A stretch of DNA of 26,422 nt from a virus. The position numbers were made by a program, and so were the translations under genes. The stretch spans positions 1 through 26,422 of the IMG/VR virus record IMGVR_UViG_3300025141_013414; one strand, 5' to 3'. Of this stretch, positions 7,058-26,325 are shown piece by piece. The notes beneath the pieces are model-generated. The model was not told where the DNA came from, did not search any database, and saw only the letters and a program-made list of their open reading frames with translations. Each line of letters begins with the position of its first letter. Within the stretch, counting starts at the first letter, position 1.

Positions 7058-7918
7058 TTAAATATTGATCAGATCAATGATGAGCTTAAATTGTTTATAA
7101 TTTTTTAATAGTCGATTCATCGCAGATCGAAGTGTCATGTAGATCTGGGTATTTGTTGTTGCCATACAAAGATTTTCAAATCCTCTATAAGCTGAGTGTG
7201 TTGCTCCAACAACTTCTCCATAACTGTTTAAAATAGGAGAACCAGAAGATCCTCCTTTTGTTGGTATTGAAAAGGCATAGGATGTTCTTCTACCATTTCG
7301 CATTTTCATTGGTCCCAAATAAAATCCCTCAAATAATGGAATCATTTTTGAAGACCAAACGCCCATTGGTGCAGCGATGTTATAGTATTTCTCACCAATT
7401 AGTGGTGGATTTTTTGAAATTATTAATTCTGGAAGAGGAATTTTAGCAGATCCTAGAATACAAATGTCAGTTTTTAGATCAAATTTGAGCGGAATAGACG
7501 CATAGGTTCTTCCCTTATAATCACTTAAGATAAAAGAATTCCTTTCCTTAAACTTCCAGTCAGGATCTCGTGCATTAAAATCGGGGATAAAATAATTTAT
7601 TTGCTTTCCCACCATAAAAGAGCAAACATGTGCTGATGTTGCCACAAGAGTTATTTCTCTGTCGTGGCCAACAATAAATCCAGAAGCAGACGATCTTAAA
7701 TCAAGTTCATATTCTTCAGATCGAGCATAGTCGGGAGCAGTTGATGTTTTGGTAACAACAATGTTTTTGTAAACATCAATTTTTATAAAAGATCTCCTTT
7801 TATCTCTGAAAAGATCTCCTGGGCCGAAAAGATAAGAACTGTTAACACAAGATGAACATCCAACAAGTGTTATGAACATCATGGTTGATAAAATAAGTTT
7901 TGCGACCGCATCTTTCAA
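7058..7918 (-). CDS. Lipoprotein trypsin-like serine protease
   Basis: The product has 286 residues from a TTG (AGGAG lies 13 bases upstream, slightly far). The N terminus is a lipoprotein signal: a basic start, a hydrophobic segment (VAKLILSTMMFITLVGC) and a lipobox LVGC with Cys21. The body is a chymotrypsin-fold serine protease: His97 in TSAHVC, Asp151 in LKTDICIL and Ser225 in KGGSSGSPIL form the expected triad with trypsin/HtrA-type spacing. No PDZ domain follows. It should be lipid-anchored in the host envelope, facing the periplasm. It is the only convincing minus-strand gene, and its stop codon abuts the last base of the tmRNA. Possible roles are host-envelope remodelling, exclusion of other phages or protein processing (inference). 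Confidence 0.8.
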   Translation of the reverse strand: MKDAVAKLILSTMMFITLVGCSSCVNSSYLFGPGDLFRDKRRSFIKIDVYKNIVVTKTSTAPDYARSEEYELDLRSSASGFIVGHDREITLVATSAHVCSFMVGKQINYFIPDFNARDPDWKFKERNSFILSDYKGRTYASIPLKFDLKTDICILGSAKIPLPELIISKNPPLIGEKYYNIAAPMGVWSSKMIPLFEGFYLGPMKMRNGRRTSYAFSIPTKGGSSGSPILNSYGEVVGATHSAYRGFENLCMATTNTQIYMTLRSAMNRLLKNYKQFKLIIDLINI

Positions 7919-17296: not shown

Positions 17297-17324
17297 AAAA
17301 AAGTTCTAATACAAGGAGAAGAAA

Positions 17325-18134
17325 ATGAATAGTTATGAAACAAAAATGGCCTATATTTTATCACAACTTGTGGACAAAAATGGTGTGGTTGGTATAAAAA
17401 CCTCTTTTGAAGACGAAGGAGCAACATTTAATGAGGTTATAAGGTTAAAAGAGATTTCCAACCAATCAAATACTAAAATCAATTTAAAAATTGGCGGCCC
17501 CGAGGCAATCAGAGACATAAAAGATTCATTAGTAATCGGAGTTAAAGGTTTAGTGGCTCCTATGGTAGAGTCTGCATTTGGTTTGAAAAAGTTTATTGAT
17601 GCTGTTAATAAAAACATTGTTGGTCCTTGTGCTAGAGATAGTTTGAATTTGGCAATAAATGTAGAAACTATAACTGCTATAAATAATTTAGATCAAATTC
17701 TAGAATCGGAATGTATAGACCAGTTGTATGGAATTACTATTGGTCGTAGTGATTTAATTGCATCTATGGGTTTTGAAAAAAGGAGAATTAATGACGAAGA
17801 AGTTTATAAAATTGTTTCTGATGCGTTTAGGAAAGTTAAAAAGAATGGATTAAAAGCTATCATGGGTGGCGGAATTGATATACAGTCTTATGACTTTGTT
17901 AAAGAACTTCACAAAGAAGGTTTACTTGACCGCATTGAAACAAGATACGTTATGTTTGATCTTTCAAAATGCATTTCTCAGTTTGAAAATAATTTATTAA
18001 AAGCACAAGAATTTGAGCTTAATTGGTTAAACAATAAAAGACAGATTTACGGCCAAAGATCGACAATAGAAGAATCTAGAATAGAAATGATAGGTAAAAG
18101 AATTAAAGAATCCTTTGAAAAAGTTGGTAAATAA
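17325..18134 (+). CDS. HpcH/HpaI-type aldolase
   Basis: The 269-residue protein has AAGGAGAAG just before its ATG. It is a TIM-barrel-type sequence with the family marks NLKIGGPEAIRDI, GLVAPMVESAFGLKKF (catalytic/metal region), INVETITAINNL and ITIGRSDLIASMG. These match the HpcH/HpaI aldolase/citrate-lyase beta family, which makes or breaks C-C bonds of pyruvate- or acyl-containing substrates with a divalent metal. In this locus it may make or use a keto-acid precursor for the sugar branch made by the ThDP enzyme (inference). Its stop is followed at once by a relic of the ThDP gene start. Phosphoenolpyruvate mutase was considered, but its signature is absent. Confidence 0.75.
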   Translation: MNSYETKMAYILSQLVDKNGVVGIKTSFEDEGATFNEVIRLKEISNQSNTKINLKIGGPEAIRDIKDSLVIGVKGLVAPMVESAFGLKKFIDAVNKNIVGPCARDSLNLAINVETITAINNLDQILESECIDQLYGITIGRSDLIASMGFEKRRINDEEVYKIVSDAFRKVKKNGLKAIMGGGIDIQSYDFVKELHKEGLLDRIETRYVMFDLSKCISQFENNLLKAQEFELNWLNNKRQIYGQRSTIEESRIEMIGKRIKESFEKVGK

Positions 18135-18139
18135 GAAAA

Positions 18140-18205
18140 ATGCTAGCATCAAAATACATCGCACGTTTTATTACAAATAAAAAAATTATCTGTTGGAGGG
18201 AATGA
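18140..18205 (+). pseudogene. Relic of the 5' end of the ThDP-enzyme gene
   Basis: A 21-codon frame reads MLASKYIARFITNKKIICWRE. Its first 16 residues match the start of the ThDP enzyme at 18611 (MLLADYVANFIANKKI) at about ten positions. The DNA shares CAAATAAAAAAATT at the same register, after which the resemblance stops. The HAD gene's ribosome site GGAGGG (18195-18200) follows the break. It looks like a remnant left when the HAD gene was inserted or duplicated in front of the ThDP gene. Confidence 0.55.
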
Positions 18206-18206
18206 A

Positions 18207-18608
18207 GTGGAAACTGGTGAATTTATTGAGTTTATCGATAGTGCTGAAAAAAATACTTTAGCTATTGATTTTGATGGTGTTATTCATAACAACAATAAAG
18301 GCTTTTATGATGGAACAGTCTATGGAGAACCCATAGTTGGCTCTTTAGAGGCTATCAAAGATCTAGCGAACGATTATAAAATTATAATTTATACTTGTAA
18401 AGCAAACCCTGATAGACCCCTTGTGAACAACAAAACCGGAGTTGAATTAGTTTGGGAATGGTTAAAAAAGTATCAAATAGATTCTTGTGTTCTTGATGTA
18501 ACATTTGAAAAGCCAAATGCTTTAGCCTACATTGATGATAAAGCCATAAGATTTGAATCTTGGGATGACACAAAAGAAGTTCTAAAATTAAATAAGCTTG
18601 TGAGGTAA
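18207..18608 (+). CDS. HAD-superfamily phosphatase-like protein
   Basis: The 133-residue protein starts at GTG 18207 with GGAGGG at 18195-18200. Motif I is AIDFDGVIH (nucleophile Asp21 and acid Asp23), motif II is IIYTCKA (Thr63), motif III includes Lys102 in FEKPNA, and motif IV is AYIDDKA (Asp110, Asp111). All HAD phosphatase elements are present in a compact, cap-less form. It may dephosphorylate a sugar or keto-acid phosphate made in this operon (inference). It lies between the relic and the intact ThDP gene. Confidence 0.8.
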   Translation: METGEFIEFIDSAEKNTLAIDFDGVIHNNNKGFYDGTVYGEPIVGSLEAIKDLANDYKIIIYTCKANPDRPLVNNKTGVELVWEWLKKYQIDSCVLDVTFEKPNALAYIDDKAIRFESWDDTKEVLKLNKLVR

Positions 18609-18610
18609 AT

Positions 18611-20332
18611 GTGTTATTGGCAGATTATGTTGCAAATTTCATTGCAAATAAAAAAATTGATACCGTTTTTAGCATACCAGGTGGTGGTTGTATCTTTTTA
18701 AATGATGCTTTTGCTAGAAAATCTGACATACAAATGGTGGCAAATCATCATGAACAAGGTTGCGCTCTTGCCGCCGAAGGTTATGCAAGAATTTCACAAA
18801 AACCAGGAGTTTGCCTTTTAACCTCTGGTCCTGGCGGCTCCAATGCTTGGACTGGAACGCTGTGTTCTTATCAAGATAGTGTTCCTGTAATAGTGATAAG
18901 TGGAAATGTTAATAGAAACTTAACTACAAACTATACTAAATTAAAAATGAGACAATTAGGAGATCAAGAGTTTGATACCGTTAAAACTGTTTCTAATTTT
19001 ACAAAATTTGCGGTGCAAGTAAATGATCCAAATAAAATAAAATTTTATTTAGAAAAAGCCTATCATTTAGCAATTTCAGGTAGACCAGGCCCAGTTTGGA
19101 TTGATATTCCACTAGACATACAAAAAAAAGAAATAGATGTAGATACATTAATCGGTTTTGTGCCCCCATCAGAAAAGTATCAGGAATTAAATTTAGATTT
19201 AATTTGCAATAAAATACTTAACAGTAAAAAACCTTTAATTGTTGTAGGTAATGGCGTAAGGTTAAGCGATTCTGTTAAAATTTTAGAAAGAATCATAGAT
19301 AAACATAAGATACCTGTTATCACTTCCTTAAACGGCAGTGATTCATTTTCAAACGAAAATGAAAATTATTTTGGAAGGTTTGGGATTTTAGGCCAAATTG
19401 CAGCAAATAAAATTCTTCAAAAATCTGATTTTGTATTATCTTTGGGAAGTCGATTGTATGTTAGACAAACAGGTTATAATTTTAAAAATTTTGCCAAAAA
19501 TGCCTTTAAAGTATATGTAGACATAGATAAGGCTGAATTAGAAAAGCCAACTCTTTATCCTGATTTAAAAATAAACTCTGATGTTAATTACTTTCTGGCT
19601 AAATTAGAAAATAAAATACCATTATTGTCGATTAATTCTTGGAAAAAAGAATGTAAAAAAATTTTAGATGACAATTCGACTGTATTGAATCGCCACAGGA
19701 CTGCTAATCCCTTAAGTATTTATGGCGTAATAGATAAGTTAAATGGGTATATGAAAAATAATTTACCAGTCGTTCTATCAAATGGTTCGGCAAATGTTGT
19801 TGCTATGCAGGTGTTGATGCTAAAGAAAGAACAAAGACTTTTCACCAATAAAGCAACAGCACCAATGGGTTATGGTATGCCTGCTGCTATTGGAGCTTAT
19901 TATGGGTGCAAAAAAACTATTTTATGCCTAGAGGGGGATGGAAGCTTTCATATGAACATTCAGGAACTACAAGTAATCTCTCAAAACAAATTACCCATCA
20001 AATTAATTGTTTTCAATAACGATGGCTATTTGTCTATAAAGATAACCCAAAAAAATTATTGTAAAGGCAACTTGTCCTTATCCAATCCTTCAAGCGGCTT
20101 AACATTACCTAAATACTCAAAAATTGCTCACGCTTATGGAATCCCTTACAGATCAGTAAAAAACCACAAAGAACTTAAAAAAGTGTTGGATGATACCTTT
20201 TCTAATACCGGCCCCGAAATAATAGAGATTTTTGTTGACCCAGATGAATACCACGAACCAAAGGTGATGGCAAAATTAGACGATAATGGAAATTTTATAC
20301 CTGGCAATCTGGAAGATATAAGTTGGTTATGA
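18611..20332 (+). CDS. ThDP-dependent enzyme, acetolactate-synthase-like
   Basis: The 573-residue protein starts at GTG 18611 with TGAGGT just before. It has three domains like acetolactate synthase: the PYR domain contains NHHEQGCALAAEGYAR with the catalytic Glu48, the middle domain covers about 190-340, and the PP domain contains GDG at 442-444 and NND at 469-471 (Mg-ThDP site). Family members decarboxylate pyruvate and add the two-carbon unit to a carbonyl. With the RfbH-type dehydrase downstream, it resembles the Yersinia enzyme YerE, which adds a two-carbon branch to a 3,6-dideoxy-4-keto sugar. Acetolactate synthesis is the alternative, but no other branched-chain amino acid genes are present. 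Its stop overlaps the next start. Confidence 0.75.
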   Translation: MLLADYVANFIANKKIDTVFSIPGGGCIFLNDAFARKSDIQMVANHHEQGCALAAEGYARISQKPGVCLLTSGPGGSNAWTGTLCSYQDSVPVIVISGNVNRNLTTNYTKLKMRQLGDQEFDTVKTVSNFTKFAVQVNDPNKIKFYLEKAYHLAISGRPGPVWIDIPLDIQKKEIDVDTLIGFVPPSEKYQELNLDLICNKILNSKKPLIVVGNGVRLSDSVKILERIIDKHKIPVITSLNGSDSFSNENENYFGRFGILGQIAANKILQKSDFVLSLGSRLYVRQTGYNFKNFAKNAFKVYVDIDKAELEKPTLYPDLKINSDVNYFLAKLENKIPLLSINSWKKECKKILDDNSTVLNRHRTANPLSIYGVIDKLNGYMKNNLPVVLSNGSANVVAMQVLMLKKEQRLFTNKATAPMGYGMPAAIGAYYGCKKTILCLEGDGSFHMNIQELQVISQNKLPIKLIVFNNDGYLSIKITQKNYCKGNLSLSNPSSGLTLPKYSKIAHAYGIPYRSVKNHKELKKVLDDTFSNTGPEIIEIFVDPDEYHEPKVMAKLDDNGNFIPGNLEDISWL

Positions 20333-21180
20333 AAATTTTATTAACTGGTGCCAATGGATTTATTGGCTCAACATTTAAAAATTATGCTATCGCAAATAAG
20401 GAAGATATAGACTTTATTTGCTCTACCAGAAACTTTCTCAATCCGCTAGATTATGATTCATTGGAAGAATTATTTTCTACTGAAAAAATCGACTTTATTA
20501 TTCATACTGCGGTTGATGGTGGCCGTCGAAATAAAATAGAAGACGCTAGTGTTTTTTATAATAATTTGTTGATGTTTGAAAATTTAATGAAATTTTCTAA
20601 TAAGGTGAAGGGTCTATTATTTTTTGGTAGTGGTGCTGAATTTGATCGTTTTCAACACGTAAGCAACGTGAGTCAAGCCGATTTTGGAACCCACATTCCT
20701 AATGATTATTATGGTTTTTCAAAATATGTAATGGCAAAAAGAATTTCTAATTTTACAAATGCTATAAATCTCAGAATTTTTAACTGTTTTGGAGAATTAG
20801 AAAAAGAAGATAGAATGATAAAGTCAAACATTCGAAATTGTCTTCAAGGTTTACCACTTATTATTCATCAAGACAGAAAAATGGATTTTTTTTATGCTGA
20901 AGATGCGTGCCGAGTTATTTCTTTTTTAATTAATAACTGGGACGATTCTTTGCCGCAACATATTAACCTGTCTTATTCCAACAAAGTCACTTTGTTTAAG
21001 ATTGCGACTTTAATAAATAATTTATTTTCTTTTAAATGCGAGATTAAAGTAGAAAAGCCTGGTTTTGAAAAAGATTATTATGGCTGCTCTCAAGCACTAG
21101 AAACGCTCGGAATAGAATTAATAGGGTTAAAAGGCGGTCTTCAAAAAATGTATCAAAGTTTAAGTCCGCAAAAACTTTAA
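20329..21180 (+). CDS. NAD(P)-dependent epimerase/dehydratase-family oxidoreductase
   Basis: The 283-residue protein starts at ATG 20329, overlapping the ThDP gene's stop; an upstream start at 20323 is less likely. It has a Rossmann fold with LLTGANGFIG (Gly-rich loop 7-13), FFGSGAEF as the Ser/Thr strand and YYGFSK (Tyr128, Lys132) as the catalytic pair. It is an extended short-chain dehydrogenase. In this context it could reduce a keto group of the branched sugar, as YerF does in yersiniose synthesis (inference), or epimerise it. It is followed by a 32-base gap with an extended -10 promoter. Confidence 0.75.
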   Translation: MKILLTGANGFIGSTFKNYAIANKEDIDFICSTRNFLNPLDYDSLEELFSTEKIDFIIHTAVDGGRRNKIEDASVFYNNLLMFENLMKFSNKVKGLLFFGSGAEFDRFQHVSNVSQADFGTHIPNDYYGFSKYVMAKRISNFTNAINLRIFNCFGELEKEDRMIKSNIRNCLQGLPLIIHQDRKMDFFYAEDACRVISFLINNWDDSLPQHINLSYSNKVTLFKIATLINNLFSFKCEIKVEKPGFEKDYYGCSQALETLGIELIGLKGGLQKMYQSLSPQKL

Positions 21181-21212: not shown

Positions 21213-22553
21213 ATGATTGACACAAAATTAGAAAACATTTTATCTTTAGTGGAAGAATACATTGAGGAAAAGCGACAGAACGAGTCTTGGAATCCTGGCG
21301 AGGATTGGGTTTCCTATTCCGGCCCACACTTTGACAAGAATGAATATCGCGAAGCTATAAAATCTCTTTTGAGCGAATGGCTTATTTTTGGAAAAGATTC
21401 TAATTTATTTGAAATGGCGTTCCCAAGACATCTTGGGATGAAGTATGGTTGTCTTGTAAACTCTGGAAGTTCAGCCAATTTATTAATGATGGCTGCTACA
21501 AAATCCAAAAAAGGATTTGCTCTTCCAGAGGGTTCAAAAATTATAACTCCGGTTGTTGGTTTTCCAACAACAATTAATCCAATTATTCAGCTAGGATTCA
21601 AGCCAGTTTTCGTTGATGTAACATTACCTGATTTGAATTTGGACTTGAATCAAGTTGAAGAATTGGTTAAGAATGATCCTGAAATCAGAGCCATAACTTT
21701 TGCTCATGTTTTGGGCAATCCTCCAGATATGGATAGATTAATGAAAATCGTTAGAGAAAACCATCTTATTTTCTTGGAAGACTCGTGTGATGCTCTTGGT
21801 TCAACCTATAGGGACAAAAAACTAGGCTCTTTTGGCGATATTTCAACATGTTCTTTCTTTCCGGCACATCATATGACAATGGGCGAAGGTGGATTTGTTG
21901 CCACAAATAATAAGAAAATTAGAAAGGCTGTGTCCAGCCTGAGAGATTGGGGTCGCGCCTGTTATTGTAATACAATGAAACCAGGAAACGTTGTGGACGG
22001 AACTGCTTGCGGCAATCGATTTAAGAATTGGCTCCCAGGGCTAAAAGAAGCAGTCTATGATCATCGTTATGTTTTTGACGATATTGGTTTTAATTTAAAA
22101 CCTCTTGATCTCCAGGCATCTATGGGATTAGAACAACTTAAAAAATTACCTGAAATGGATCATGCAAGAAAGTTTAATTTTCTTAAATTAAATGAGGTTT
22201 TTAAACCCTATGAAAAGTATTTTCATTTGCCAAAAGCAACTCCAGATTCTGATCCTTGCTGGTTTGCCTATTTGATGACAGTTAAAAAAGATGCGCCTTT
22301 TAAAAAGCAAGACATCATTTCTCATCTTGAAGGCAAAAAAATTCAAACTCGTTCATTCTTTGCTGGCAATATTCTAACACATCCAGGCTATTACCACATG
22401 GCTTCTGATTACGGAGATCTAGATGAGATGTTCCCTGTTGCCCAACAAGTAACAACCAACTCTTTCTTTTTGGGGACTTTTATCGGAATCACAGATGATA
22501 AAATTAGATACATCAAAAAATCAGTAGATGAGTTTTTCGAAGGCATTAAGTGA
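21213..22553 (+). CDS. RfbH/E1-type sugar 3-dehydrase
   Basis: The 446-residue protein is of the DegT/DnrJ/EryC1 (AHBA synthase) family. At the PLP-lysine position it has His219-His220 in SFFPAHHMTMGEGG. His at this place is the mark of CDP-4-keto-6-deoxyglucose-3-dehydrases (E1/AscC, RfbH, ColD-like), which remove the 3-hydroxyl instead of transaminating. Cys192, Cys250 and Cys252 (WGRACYC), with Cys266 (GTACGNRF), fit the [2Fe-2S] ligands of E1/RfbH. The enzyme would need PMP and an iron-sulfur reductase, which I do not see here. It should give a 3,6-dideoxy-4-keto sugar. The gene after it starts as GTGA. Confidence 0.85.
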   Translation: MIDTKLENILSLVEEYIEEKRQNESWNPGEDWVSYSGPHFDKNEYREAIKSLLSEWLIFGKDSNLFEMAFPRHLGMKYGCLVNSGSSANLLMMAATKSKKGFALPEGSKIITPVVGFPTTINPIIQLGFKPVFVDVTLPDLNLDLNQVEELVKNDPEIRAITFAHVLGNPPDMDRLMKIVRENHLIFLEDSCDALGSTYRDKKLGSFGDISTCSFFPAHHMTMGEGGFVATNNKKIRKAVSSLRDWGRACYCNTMKPGNVVDGTACGNRFKNWLPGLKEAVYDHRYVFDDIGFNLKPLDLQASMGLEQLKKLPEMDHARKFNFLKLNEVFKPYEKYFHLPKATPDSDPCWFAYLMTVKKDAPFKKQDIISHLEGKKIQTRSFFAGNILTHPGYYHMASDYGDLDEMFPVAQQVTTNSFFLGTFIGITDDKIRYIKKSVDEFFEGIK

Positions 22554-23500
22554 AGATAGTTTATGTAACAGGTTGTTTGGGATTTATGGGCTCCTATTTT
22601 ACTCGCCAAGCACTTAATCGAGGTTGGCACGTTAGAGGCGTTGATAAAATGACTTATGCCTCAAATAACGAACTGTTAAAAGAATTTAAAAATTATCCCA
22701 ACTTTGCTTTTGATAAATGCGACATCAAAAATTTAAATAATCTTTATGACTGCGATTATGTAGTAAACTTTGCCGCAGAATCTCATGTTGGTAATAGTAT
22801 TGTGAATAGCGACAAGTTTATAGAAAGTAATATAAACGGTGTTAAAAATCTCTTAGAAAACGTTAGAATTAAACCTGTAAATTGTAACGACAGACCAATT
22901 TTGTTTCACATTAGCACAGACGAAGTTTATGGTGACATTATCGAGGGATCTCATACAGAAAACGATCTTCTAAGGCCCAGCAATCCCTATTCTGCGTCTA
23001 AAGCTGCCGCCGACATGTTAATTCATGCCTGGTCACGAACCTATGAAATCAAATACATTATTTTGCGTCCCACGAACAACTATGGAATCGGCCAATATCC
23101 TGAAAAGCTAATTCCTCTTTCAATTAAAAATTTGATGAGAGGAAAAAAGATTAGATTACATAACGGCGGAACGCCAACACGAAATTGGCTTCATGCGAGC
23201 GATACTGCCAATGCTGTGATGACAATAATAGATTCAGGGAAAGTGAATGAGATTTATAATGTTGCTGGCGGTTTTGAACAGAAAAACATTGACACTGTGA
23301 AGAAAATTATCAAAGCCTTCAAAGAAACTTTAGACAATTGGGAAAATTATGTAGATTTTTCAGTTGTGCGAGAAGGTCAAGATCTACGTTATGCGTTAGA
23401 TGATTCTAAATTGCGTAAATTGGGTTGGAAGACCGAGAAGATTTTTGATGAAGAAATTTCATCTATTGTCAGACATCATAAAACTAACTATGTATGGTAA
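22550..23500 (+). CDS. Nucleotide-sugar 4,6-dehydratase (RmlB-like)
   Basis: The 316-residue protein starts at a GTG overlapping the previous stop (GTGA). VYVTGCLGFMGS (NAD loop), STDEVYGDI (Thr123, Asp124, Glu125: the dehydratase triad) and NPYSASKAAADMLIHAW (Tyr147, Lys151) follow the RmlB pattern, and a PTNNYGIGQYPEKLIPL segment lies in the sugar-binding half. It should form a 4-keto-6-deoxy sugar nucleotide. The TDEVYG motif is like dTDP-glucose enzymes, whereas CDP-glucose enzymes usually have TDKCYE, so the nucleotide is uncertain. It would feed the 3-dehydrase upstream. Confidence 0.85.
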   Translation: MKIVYVTGCLGFMGSYFTRQALNRGWHVRGVDKMTYASNNELLKEFKNYPNFAFDKCDIKNLNNLYDCDYVVNFAAESHVGNSIVNSDKFIESNINGVKNLLENVRIKPVNCNDRPILFHISTDEVYGDIIEGSHTENDLLRPSNPYSASKAAADMLIHAWSRTYEIKYIILRPTNNYGIGQYPEKLIPLSIKNLMRGKKIRLHNGGTPTRNWLHASDTANAVMTIIDSGKVNEIYNVAGGFEQKNIDTVKKIIKAFKETLDNWENYVDFSVVREGQDLRYALDDSKLRKLGWKTEKIFDEEISSIVRHHKTNYVW

Positions 23501-23512
23501 AGGGAGAAAAAA

Positions 23513-25276
23513 ATGAAAATCTTACTAACTTGCACCTCTGTTGATGATGCCCACCGAACTGAAACTGATCATGATAGTCATTATCCTCTGGGTTTGGCAT
23601 ATTTACATTCTTATTTAAACAAGCATCAACCTCAACATGAAATTGAAACACATTTTTTAAATAATGTTAATTGGGAGATCTGTATAAACAAGCTTAGAGA
23701 GGAGATGAAATCTTTTCAACCAGATGTTGTTGGCATTTCAATGATGACCCACAGTCGTAGAAGTGCTTTTAAATTTATTGATTATCTTACTAAAAATTAT
23801 CCTAAAGTTAAAATTGTTTTAGGCGGCATTCATCCAACTATCATGTGGAAACAGATAGTAAATAAATATAGAAATTCTGTTATTGTAATTGGGGAAGGTG
23901 AAATTACTTTCGGAGAGTTAATTGAATGTTATGAAAAAAACTTGCCAATTGATAAAATTGGTGGCATCGTTTATTATGATGGAGAAAAGGTTTTTCATAC
24001 TGGTGAGCGTGGTCTTATTGACGACTTAGATATTTTACCACCACCCAAACATGATATCTTTTTATTTAATGGTAAGACAGTAGCCAATCTTCTCACTTCA
24101 AGAGGGTGTCCTTTTAAATGCAATTTTTGTGTTTTAGATCACGTTTCACTTAAAAAAGTTCGTTATCGTTCTCCTAGTGATATTTGTGATGAAGTTGAAC
24201 AGATTTTAGAAATGTGCCCATCGGTACAAATAATTTGGTTACACGATGATGCATTTATGATTAATAAGAAACTTACAGTGGCAATTTGTGATGAAATAAT
24301 CCGTCGCGGAATTAAAACCACTTTCACTTGTAGTGCAAGATTTAGGCCAATTTCTAGAGATCTTGTTAAAAAAATGGAAGAAGCAGGGTTTACTCATGTT
24401 TTATTTGGCCTTGAAAGCGGGGCCAATGAAGTTATGAAGGGGATGCGTAAAGGTATCAATAAAAATCACATTAGATACGCGGTTTCATTACTCGCAGAAA
24501 GCAATATTAAGACGACAGCATTTTTGATTGCAGGATTACCTGGCGAATCTGAAGAAACTATAAAAGAGACAATTGATTTTGTGCAAGAGTTGCAATCAAT
24601 AAATTATTTGTATTATGATGACATGGGTATTTGTGGAATTTATCCGGGGGCTGAAGTGTTTGACATCGCTAAAGAAAAGAAAATGATGATACCCGGTTAT
24701 GGGCCAATTGATGATGATTACTGGTTGACACAAGGAGAAGTACCTGTTTACGAGGCGGAAAACACCGAAGCACAACTATTAGAATGGAAGGAACAAATTA
24801 GAGATGGGATAGCTTTTAACAGGATGAGACAAAACCCCCAACACTTTTTAAAGCAAAGAAAATTATTGCCCTCCGTTATTAAATGGAGCTGGCAACAAAA
24901 TTGGTTATTAAAACCGATGGTTGAACAAATTATAAACCAGTATAATCTTTTGCCTGAAGTTATTCATAAATTTTTTACTAATCGTCGGCGCGAAGTAATT
25001 TTAAAGATTTCTTCTATTGTTGAAAAAACATTTATGACTGAACTTATGAAAACAATGACAATTGAAGAAAAGCAAAATTTTATAAGTGATTATAGAAAAC
25101 AGCTTGAAGAAGATAATAAGACATTAGAGAGATGGAAAACATCTAAAATCCCAGCTACTGATGAATATATTAAACCTGTTGGTGAAAAAGTTGATAAACT
25201 TATACAGATGTCCGAATCCGCAGCAAGAAAAGAGGCTCAGAAAAAAGCTAACCCTAGATTGAGTGTATTGGCATAA
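23513..25276 (+). CDS. B12-binding-domain radical SAM enzyme
   Basis: The 587-residue protein follows AGGGAG. The N-terminal 160 residues are a B12-binding-type Rossmann domain (YPLGLAYLHSYL, VGISMMTHSRRSAF, IVLGGIHPT, VIGEGE). A radical SAM core begins at about 190 with SRGCPFKCNFC, whose Cys199, Cys203 and Cys206 hold the [4Fe-4S] cluster. GLESG, AFLIAGLPGESEETI and a long helical, charged C terminus (about 400-587) follow. This architecture covers methyltransferases and many oxidative or cyclising enzymes, so the reaction is not predictable. In this locus it could methylate or rearrange a sugar (inference). It is cytoplasmic. Confidence 0.85.
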   Translation: MKILLTCTSVDDAHRTETDHDSHYPLGLAYLHSYLNKHQPQHEIETHFLNNVNWEICINKLREEMKSFQPDVVGISMMTHSRRSAFKFIDYLTKNYPKVKIVLGGIHPTIMWKQIVNKYRNSVIVIGEGEITFGELIECYEKNLPIDKIGGIVYYDGEKVFHTGERGLIDDLDILPPPKHDIFLFNGKTVANLLTSRGCPFKCNFCVLDHVSLKKVRYRSPSDICDEVEQILEMCPSVQIIWLHDDAFMINKKLTVAICDEIIRRGIKTTFTCSARFRPISRDLVKKMEEAGFTHVLFGLESGANEVMKGMRKGINKNHIRYAVSLLAESNIKTTAFLIAGLPGESEETIKETIDFVQELQSINYLYYDDMGICGIYPGAEVFDIAKEKKMMIPGYGPIDDDYWLTQGEVPVYEAENTEAQLLEWKEQIRDGIAFNRMRQNPQHFLKQRKLLPSVIKWSWQQNWLLKPMVEQIINQYNLLPEVIHKFFTNRRREVILKISSIVEKTFMTELMKTMTIEEKQNFISDYRKQLEEDNKTLERWKTSKIPATDEYIKPVGEKVDKLIQMSESAARKEAQKKANPRLSVLA

Positions 25277-25302: not shown

Positions 25303-26325
25303 ATGAAAATTGGTTGCCTAATTTATTTTTATGGAAAGAGATACGAAAAACTCGGCCCCTGCGCGTTGGAAAGTTTTAAAATTTTTCACCCAGATGTAAC
25401 ATTATTTTATATTAATGAAACTAATCAAAACGATTATGATTCCACCAAACTTATAAATAATTATGGTCAAGGAATTTATAAGTACATGCTTGCTTATGAG
25501 ATAATGATAAAACATAAGTGCGATAAAATGATTATTTTAGGTGGGGATACAATAACATGCTCTAGATTGGATGAGTTTATAGATAACAATGAAGACGATG
25601 TGCTTGTTACTTTGTCCTATCCATTCGGTATAACGTATCCGTTTAAGAGTGGAGATCGAATGGGGGGTGTTCCAACACCTATGATATCCTATAGAAAAGC
25701 AGATAAAATTTTTGAAGAGCATTTTCATTTTAATTCGGATGTGGCGTGTTTTAATAATTCGGAAGCATTAAAAAAAGTGGTTTCGTGTTCCGTTGCTCAC
25801 CAAGAAGCTCACAACGTTCTTTGTGTTAACAGAAACATTTTCTTCGCATTAAATAATCAGTTAAATAATCTTGGATTCGAATCTCTAACCCCAGATTATT
25901 ATGCAGAAAATGCAGGCATTAATTTATTGAGCACTATTAGTCACAATAATCAAATTCAATCAGATGTAACTGCATGGACCAACTCTGATTGGAATTTTAA
26001 AATCAAATGTGTCGATGGTCCATATGAACTAAGTGATGTTGTTTATAATGCTAGATCAAAGGGGAATTTATGTGCGGGTCCAGGCGAAAAACCGTGGGGG
26101 CCTTTTATAAATAGATGGAAAGTCGATCAGGGAAAACTTTATGATTCTGAAGGTAAACAAATAAAGATTTATCATTATTGTGAAGGTTTTGGTTCTATTA
26201 GTGATGAAGAATTTAAAGAATTAGTAAATAAATACATTTTTGACTGGTTTAACGAGGATACAAAAAAGTTCTTTAAAGAACATTGTGCTTGCGGCGATTT
26301 TTTTGAAAAGGAATTTTCTATTTAA
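25303..26325 (+). CDS. Probable GT-A-fold glycosyltransferase-like protein
   Basis: This 340-residue protein begins MKIGCLIYFYGKRYEKLGPC. An N-terminal strand, ALESFKIFHPDVTLFYIN, and KYMLAYEIMIK precede MIILGGDTITCSRLDEF, where Asp82 and neighbours could be the metal site, as in GT8-like enzymes. EKPWGPF and YHYCEGFG occur in the C-terminal half. No signal peptide or membrane segment is visible. The GT assignment is from fold pattern and context only. A short hypothetical-type spacer (26 bases) precedes it, and the next gene starts at a TTG right after its stop. Confidence 0.5.
   Translation: MKIGCLIYFYGKRYEKLGPCALESFKIFHPDVTLFYINETNQNDYDSTKLINNYGQGIYKYMLAYEIMIKHKCDKMIILGGDTITCSRLDEFIDNNEDDVLVTLSYPFGITYPFKSGDRMGGVPTPMISYRKADKIFEEHFHFNSDVACFNNSEALKKVVSCSVAHQEAHNVLCVNRNIFFALNNQLNNLGFESLTPDYYAENAGINLLSTISHNNQIQSDVTAWTNSDWNFKIKCVDGPYELSDVVYNARSKGNLCAGPGEKPWGPFINRWKVDQGKLYDSEGKQIKIYHYCEGFGSISDEEFKELVNKYIFDWFNEDTKKFFKEHCACGDFFEKEFSI

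Follow-up and report, generated by a model that had tools for sequence, protein, structure and literature searches.

The window analyzed here, a virus record of 26,422 bases, carries a PhoH-like gene, one tRNA gene and several glycosyltransferase genes; a trypsin-like peptidase gene lies on the opposite strand (7058-7918, -). It includes a sugar operon with the order glycosyltransferase, HpcH/HpaI aldolase, a short stub, HAD, ThDP enzyme, epimerase-like gene, RfbH-like gene, 4,6-dehydratase-like gene and B12-radical SAM gene (Table 1). The product of the HAD gene has no Pfam match, and its label was taken over from the first-pass annotation, in agreement with existing annotations. The ThDP protein has GDG at residues 442-444 and NN at residues 469-470.

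Table 1. Features of the sugar operon and of the stub between its aldolase and HAD genes.
Feature	Coordinates	Strand	Evidence
HpcH/HpaI-type aldolase gene, 269 aa	17325..18134	+	Pfam PF03328 6.9e-12; viral relatives up to 57% identity
Very likely relic of ThDP-gene start (16 codons matching 18611-18658)	18140..18187	+	direct comparison, shuffles, repeat D1, family profile
Open frame that contains the relic: 21 codons plus TGA, with 1 nt left before the HAD start	18140..18205	+	sequence
GGAGGG, probable ribosome site for HAD	18195..18200	+	sequence
Small HAD-like hydrolase gene, 133 aa, GTG start	18207..18608	+	PHROG phrog_1238 2.6e-17; viral relatives 38-66%
ThDP-dependent YerE/JanthE-like decarboxylase-carboligase gene, 573 aa, complete	18611..20332	+	three TPP_enzyme Pfam domains; best solved relative 8rph
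NAD-dependent epimerase/reductase gene, after ThDP in many relatives	20323..21180	+	PF01370 4e-27; gene order
RfbH-type 3-dehydrase gene	21213..22553	+	NF011936 455.9 bits, above cut-off 423
Nucleotide-sugar 4,6-dehydratase gene	22550..23500	+	TIGR01181 306.3 bits, below cut-off 365.1; PF16363
B12-binding radical SAM gene, after the sugar genes	23513-25276
340-residue protein	25303-26325		no Pfam/PHROG/NCBIfam match at E 0.001

Among solved structures the ThDP protein matches 8rph best (2.5e-103; next, 2e-79), which is JanthE, a YerE-like enzyme according to parts of PMC12188165. Like the YerE, ErwE and JanthE operons, to which this closest structure also points, the operon has an RfbH-type 3-dehydrase, a 4,6-dehydratase and a reductase-like gene as neighbors. 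It differs from them in that the ThDP gene is found on a virus record and is preceded by an aldolase and HAD, and in that the activity of its product is predicted from sequence; moreover, passages of PMC12247030 and PMC12188165 give CDG for JanthE where the window's protein has GDG. YerE-like enzymes make branched sugars of lipopolysaccharide, as set out in sections of the review PMC12247030, which also describe a donor preference of ErwE for compounds such as 4-hydroxy-2-oxo acids. The position of an aldolase beside a YerE-like enzyme would be sensible as donor supply: the aldolase is predicted to provide a 4-hydroxy-2-oxo acid, which the ThDP enzyme would add to a keto-deoxysugar. The ThDP gene has a deoxysugar gene context, comprising an RfbH-like gene above its cut-off, a dehydratase-like gene below its cut-off, and epimerase genes. 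The operon looks like one for a C-branched deoxysugar, and it probably makes a branched surface sugar.

The stub is an open frame with ATG at 18140 and TGA at 18203-18205 (translation MLASKYIARFITNKKIICWRE, followed by the stop), as the first-pass annotation had placed and translated it. That annotation had also noted a resemblance to the start of the ThDP gene with DNA common to both, and the comparison bears this out. The ThDP gene begins with GTG at 18611, and its protein with MLLADYVANFIANKKI; positions 18140-18187 and 18611-18658 are identical at 33 of 48 bases and 10 of 16 residues, in register, with a BLOSUM62 sum of 52 and an exact common run of 14 nt, CAAATAAAAAAATT. None of 300,000 shuffles of the stub peptide reached this score (best 43), placing the similarity far above chance, nor did any of 100,000 random-codon peptides (best 34); 33 identical bases were reached by 1 of 300,000 random-codon DNAs. 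When all 21,902 stop-free 16-mers from the six frames of the window were ranked, the ThDP start itself came first, the stub second with 52, and the third scored 31. A repeat finder returned the same pair as the longest direct repeat within 17300-20400 (38 nt, 76%, 471 apart). Only 2 of the 15 differences between the two sequences fall at codon position 2. The likeness ends at 18187, ahead of GGAGGG and of the GTG of the HAD gene, consistent with the earlier remark that the match stops just before the HAD ribosome site; the rest of the ThDP gene is absent after the stub, and the HAD gene follows instead.

We also scored the stub on a profile of ThDP starts built without the window. It obtained 16.0, against 24-38 for the profile's own member starts, a range that refers to the starts used to build the profile and not left out one by one. 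Over 1.91 million segments, the best score outside ThDP genes, other than that of the stub, was 15.9, from an unrelated segment of locus L222 that appears nucleotidyltransferase-like by eye (viral loci are denoted by L and a number). Taken alone, this score would be no proof of homology; the argument is carried by position, by register and by the direct comparison, with the profile as support. Judged from these sequence comparisons, the stub is very likely a relic, namely a 5' remnant, of a ThDP gene start.

Comparison with other alleles bears on which ThDP gene the stub came from. The stub shares 32 of 48 bases with the ThDP start of L163 and 32 with that of L040, whereas the present start of the window shares 29 and 31, respectively; L039 is nearer to the present start (31/48) than to the stub (29/48). 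Mean identity to 85 family starts is 24.1 of 48 for the stub and 24.6 for the present start. The serine at residue 4 is kept in the stub and in 71 of 81 related starts and is absent from the present ThDP start; at another site, where 77 of the 81 have Asp, the stub has Lys. We simulated the decay of the present start to 15 differences, and the clade similarity of the stub was reached in 29 of 20,000 runs and its family mean in 116 of 20,000. The stub as a simple decayed copy of the present start is thus disfavored by the simulation (an older copy is compatible with it), and since simulated decay so rarely matches its similarities, a different allele, or the same gene in an older state, is the probable source of the stub. 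The two parts of the stub differ in this respect. Its first 26 bases match the window's own ThDP start at only 13 positions and other alleles at up to 18, while its last 22 bases are closest to the window's own start, with 20 identical versus at most 17 for others. This second part points the other way and may be the mark of a joint or of a later exchange.

Relatives of the three genes were collected from viral contigs. HAD relatives were first found in 23 viral loci, and among these 23 records 4 had a ThDP relative and 2 an aldolase relative. Exact-peptide scans of viral contigs with ThDP or aldolase gave no relative, while alignments later found many: we used the best 80 of 207 ThDP loci, 49 aldolase loci, and the best 80 of 128 HAD loci, together with 39 loci of the window's own ThDP clade, about half of which were also in the other sets. 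A genome scan gave two Lachnospiraceae loci at 29-30%. ThDP matches among phages (best 40 of 55 records) and plasmids (best 30 of 1,623) reached at most 32% identity, and those with names were mostly acetolactate synthases. No aldolase relative was matched in phages; 12 plasmid records had one at 28-36%, and the one plasmid aldolase region that was read had no ThDP neighbor.

The first-pass annotation proposed a search for related loci in which the aldolase is directly followed by the ThDP gene. We found none: an HpcH/HpaI aldolase is the direct upstream neighbor in 0 of 91 distinct ThDP genes (samples being the best 80 matches per scan; split or partial ThDP genes, namely L007, L164 and short matches, were left out of the count). 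The neighbors recorded are DHQ-synthase-like (34), HAD (21), 4,6-dehydratase (7), HMGL-like (5), epimerase (1), RfbH (1), other (17) and unrecognised (5). Of the 17 others, 15 were inspected (L088 and L089 fall outside these, and L102 gave no frame), and 11 are NeuB-like by eye, with ELANNH or EMANNH, three of them confirmed by Pfam. Examples of HMGL-like or NeuB-like genes directly before ThDP are L083:294-1319, L093:2973-4004, L069:2924-3997 and L158:5740-6783. It is as if different C-C-bond enzymes were interchangeable in the slot before ThDP.

Seen from the aldolase side, 12 of 50 genes counted, that of the window included, are directly followed by HAD; in 33 ThDP lies 1.6-2.3 kb further on, and the other 5 lack both HAD and ThDP downstream in the examined stretch. 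Six of the long gaps were read: five contain an SDR and a DHQ-synthase-like gene (one with an extra gene), e.g. L128:4798-6473, and the sixth, L158, has an SDR, a small gene and a NeuB-like gene. In L128 and similar loci the SDR and DHQ-synthase-like pair occupies the place of HAD between the HpcH/HpaI aldolase and ThDP. A derivation of the stub from the 1.6 kb aldolase-ThDP block of many relatives was dropped, as the genes there start differently in the loci read. In L007 (3263-5022) the ThDP gene is split into two frames, and an FMN-dependent dehydrogenase gene lies between HAD and ThDP.

Viral cassettes with the same aldolase-HAD-ThDP order and homologous proteins (L005, L006, L163, L167 and others) differ from the window in that their aldolase and HAD abut or overlap, with no stub. 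Between aldolase and HAD, all 11 other records (L164, with broken frames, among them) have a spacing of -8 to +1, and the window has +72, a stretch that holds the stub. HAD and ThDP overlap in 19 of 20 other adjacent pairs, by 14 nt in nine, 20 in four and 4 in six, compared to +2 in the window; the exception is L005, with a gap of +1. These overlaps are counted from the start codon nearest the aligned start. With the position that aligns to the window's first codon as reference (not a start codon in 10 of the records), the six overlaps of 4 nt become -1 or +2 and the four of 20 nt become -14. The joint ahead of the window's HAD is unique in the sample; the one behind it, though uncommon, has a counterpart of the same kind in L005. 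The joints of L163 and L167, whose ThDP groups with that of the window, are tight. Since a tightly packed aldolase-HAD-ThDP order is a common layout in related phages, HAD is no stranger in the slot between the two other genes.

The trees give a mixed picture. The ThDP of the window groups with L039, L163 and L167 (SH-aLRT 100, quick tree). Its HAD groups in the smaller tree with L080, L083 and L085 (98/94), where HAD sits before an epimerase gene, and in an 81-row tree with seven others (100/99), five of this HAD-before-epimerase layout plus L198 and L250. L026 and HAD matches running through a stop, L005 among them, were left out of the careful HAD trees. In the smaller tree the AU test rejects a grouping of the window's HAD with L163 and L167 (p 0.0195), as well as a single clade of the ten HADs from aldolase-HAD-ThDP loci (p 0.0138); in the 81-row tree, which has few columns and a bootstrap that had not settled, the grouping with L163 and L167 is not rejected (p 0.098). 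By bit score the nearest HADs are those of the epimerase layout (163-170 vs 152-155); in identity an aldolase-HAD-ThDP record (L074/L202) ranks first, at 66% over 107 residues. With this mixed support, the HAD of the window appears to have its main affinity to HADs from other contexts. A tree of 42 aldolases (L075, L099, L100, L163 and L167 left out), in which weak forks are frequent, requires at least 6 changes of downstream partner between HAD and the longer block; the window's aldolase lies on a long branch, and its placement is unsure. Members of the window's ThDP clade have another type of aldolase, those of L163 and L167 being distant from it.

Because of the joint before HAD and the HAD trees, we favor an entry of HAD between aldolase and ThDP. 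Our preferred reading, which we hold tentatively and at somewhat less than an even chance, is that 18140-18187 is the leftover of a ThDP 5' end that once stood directly after the aldolase, and that HAD entered at this start by recombination. From the stub and its joint we infer an ancestral order in which 5 nt would have separated the aldolase stop from the ThDP start. Bringing its own ribosome site, a HAD gene would then have entered at the ThDP start by recombination in this phage lineage, through insertion with a duplicated start or through template switching, leaving the first 16 codons upstream of HAD and a full ThDP gene after it. The relic would have drifted later, or would come from a slightly different allele. 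The first-pass annotation had described an aldolase-ThDP pair split by insertion of HAD, with a stub left behind. The relic, the odd joints (+72 and +2) and the fact that five of the seven HADs grouped with that of the window precede an epimerase gene agree with that description; the absence of a direct pair among the 91 ThDP genes and the frequency of HAD in the slot do not, nor can the split have been a clean one. As a complete ThDP start now follows HAD, the locus must either have undergone duplication of this start or have acquired a second ThDP allele. Consistent with insertion, other C-C-bond enzymes, HMGL-like (5) and NeuB-like (11), do directly precede ThDP in relatives.

Cassette replacement would explain much of the same evidence. 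A recipient with an aldolase directly followed by an older ThDP allele would have received a ready HAD-ThDP block, with the left joint 48 nt inside the old ThDP gene, so that HAD and ThDP arrived together and the stub comes from a different allele. This agrees with the first 26 bases of the stub being nearer to other alleles than to its own ThDP, with the repeated change of the aldolase's downstream partner on a tree whose forks are often weak, and with an aldolase unlike that of the window's ThDP clade. We nevertheless consider it unlikely, though a serious contender: HAD-ThDP blocks overlap in nearly all other records and the window's does not, its HAD falls outside the HADs of such blocks (one test allows it), and the last 22 bases of the stub are closest to its own ThDP. 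Another possibility, which we regard as rather improbable, is that HAD never moved and that a ThDP 5' end was copied into the existing aldolase-HAD gap of an aldolase-HAD-ThDP operon. Aldolase and HAD are adjacent in 11 other records, and they are fused into one 377-residue frame in L250:2751-3884 (the same in L248), for which there is no ThDP match in the examined stretch; aldolase and HAD may thus be earlier partners, given the common order and this fusion with a HAD of the window's group. The HAD grouping and the missing HAD-ThDP overlap are left unexplained by such a copy, which would need to be of old date or derived from a different allele, the stub being no simple decayed copy of the present start. 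Against the insertion reading, stub and ThDP start differ at 15 of 48 bases, so that a past identity of the pair can only be presumed. The missing overlap in L005, and the fact that an aldolase-HAD-ThDP record has the HAD most identical to that of the window, make insertion less likely and raise the odds of replacement and of copying into the gap.

The stub might instead serve as a leader. Ribosomes coming off the aldolase gene would re-initiate at 18140 and translate 21 codons, terminating 1 nt ahead of HAD, which would keep the two genes coupled in translation. Its ATG lies 5 nt past the aldolase stop and its TGA 1 nt before the GTG, the same genes abut or overlap in relatives, and a first in-frame stop within the last 9 nt, as near to HAD as here, occurred in 800 of 20,000 shuffles. 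However, HAD has its own GGAGGG, and the open frame is unremarkable, as simulated decay left the 16 codons open in 10,739 of 20,000 copies. One exact degenerate peptide pattern, which misses looser relatives, matched three stretches in viral contigs: a true ThDP start (L188) and two short frames without related genes, so that outside ThDP genes only the latter two resemble the peptide. A leader-peptide role is possible but weakly supported, and as an explanation of the stub we consider it very improbable. Least probable of all is that the similarity is due to chance or to a mis-joined metagenome contig. The profile does score an unrelated segment almost as high as the stub, and the record comes from a public collection of virus contigs; yet the direct comparison stands far above shuffles and stays in register from the start codon to codon 16, and the exact common run is only 14 nt, which is short for an assembly join.

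Gene remnants or scars at recombination joints occur in phage and bacterial surface-sugar operons. The stub resembles such scars in being a short 5' gene piece beside a rearranged neighbor, with the operon otherwise intact; it differs in that the gene is still intact one gene on, so that HAD lies between two imperfect direct repeats, the remnant and the gene. The scar suggests a gene order rebuilt by recombination, and such a scar is an ordinary kind of genomic leftover. Among the matches listed, literature searches gave nothing on point for phage-borne sugar cassettes, and no match for gene-start scars of this kind. The relic records one step in the rebuilding of phage sugar operons and shows the position of the joint. 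A more speculative and doubtful extension is that exchange is favored at or near the start of the ThDP gene and that the stub is a scar of it: phages would repeatedly swap the block ahead of a YerE-like branching enzyme and thereby vary the side chain of a branched surface sugar, the leftover now acting as a short translated bridge between aldolase and HAD. The blocks swapped would comprise an HpcH/HpaI aldolase together with either HAD or the SDR and DHQ-synthase-like genes, as well as HMGL-like and NeuB-like genes. By eye, GGTAAAT occurs close to the end of both the aldolase and the HAD gene, a possible microhomology. The wider pattern, with ThDP kept and the upstream C-C-bond module exchanged, would offer a way to test how phages diversify the branched sugars that they may attach to host surfaces or modify there.
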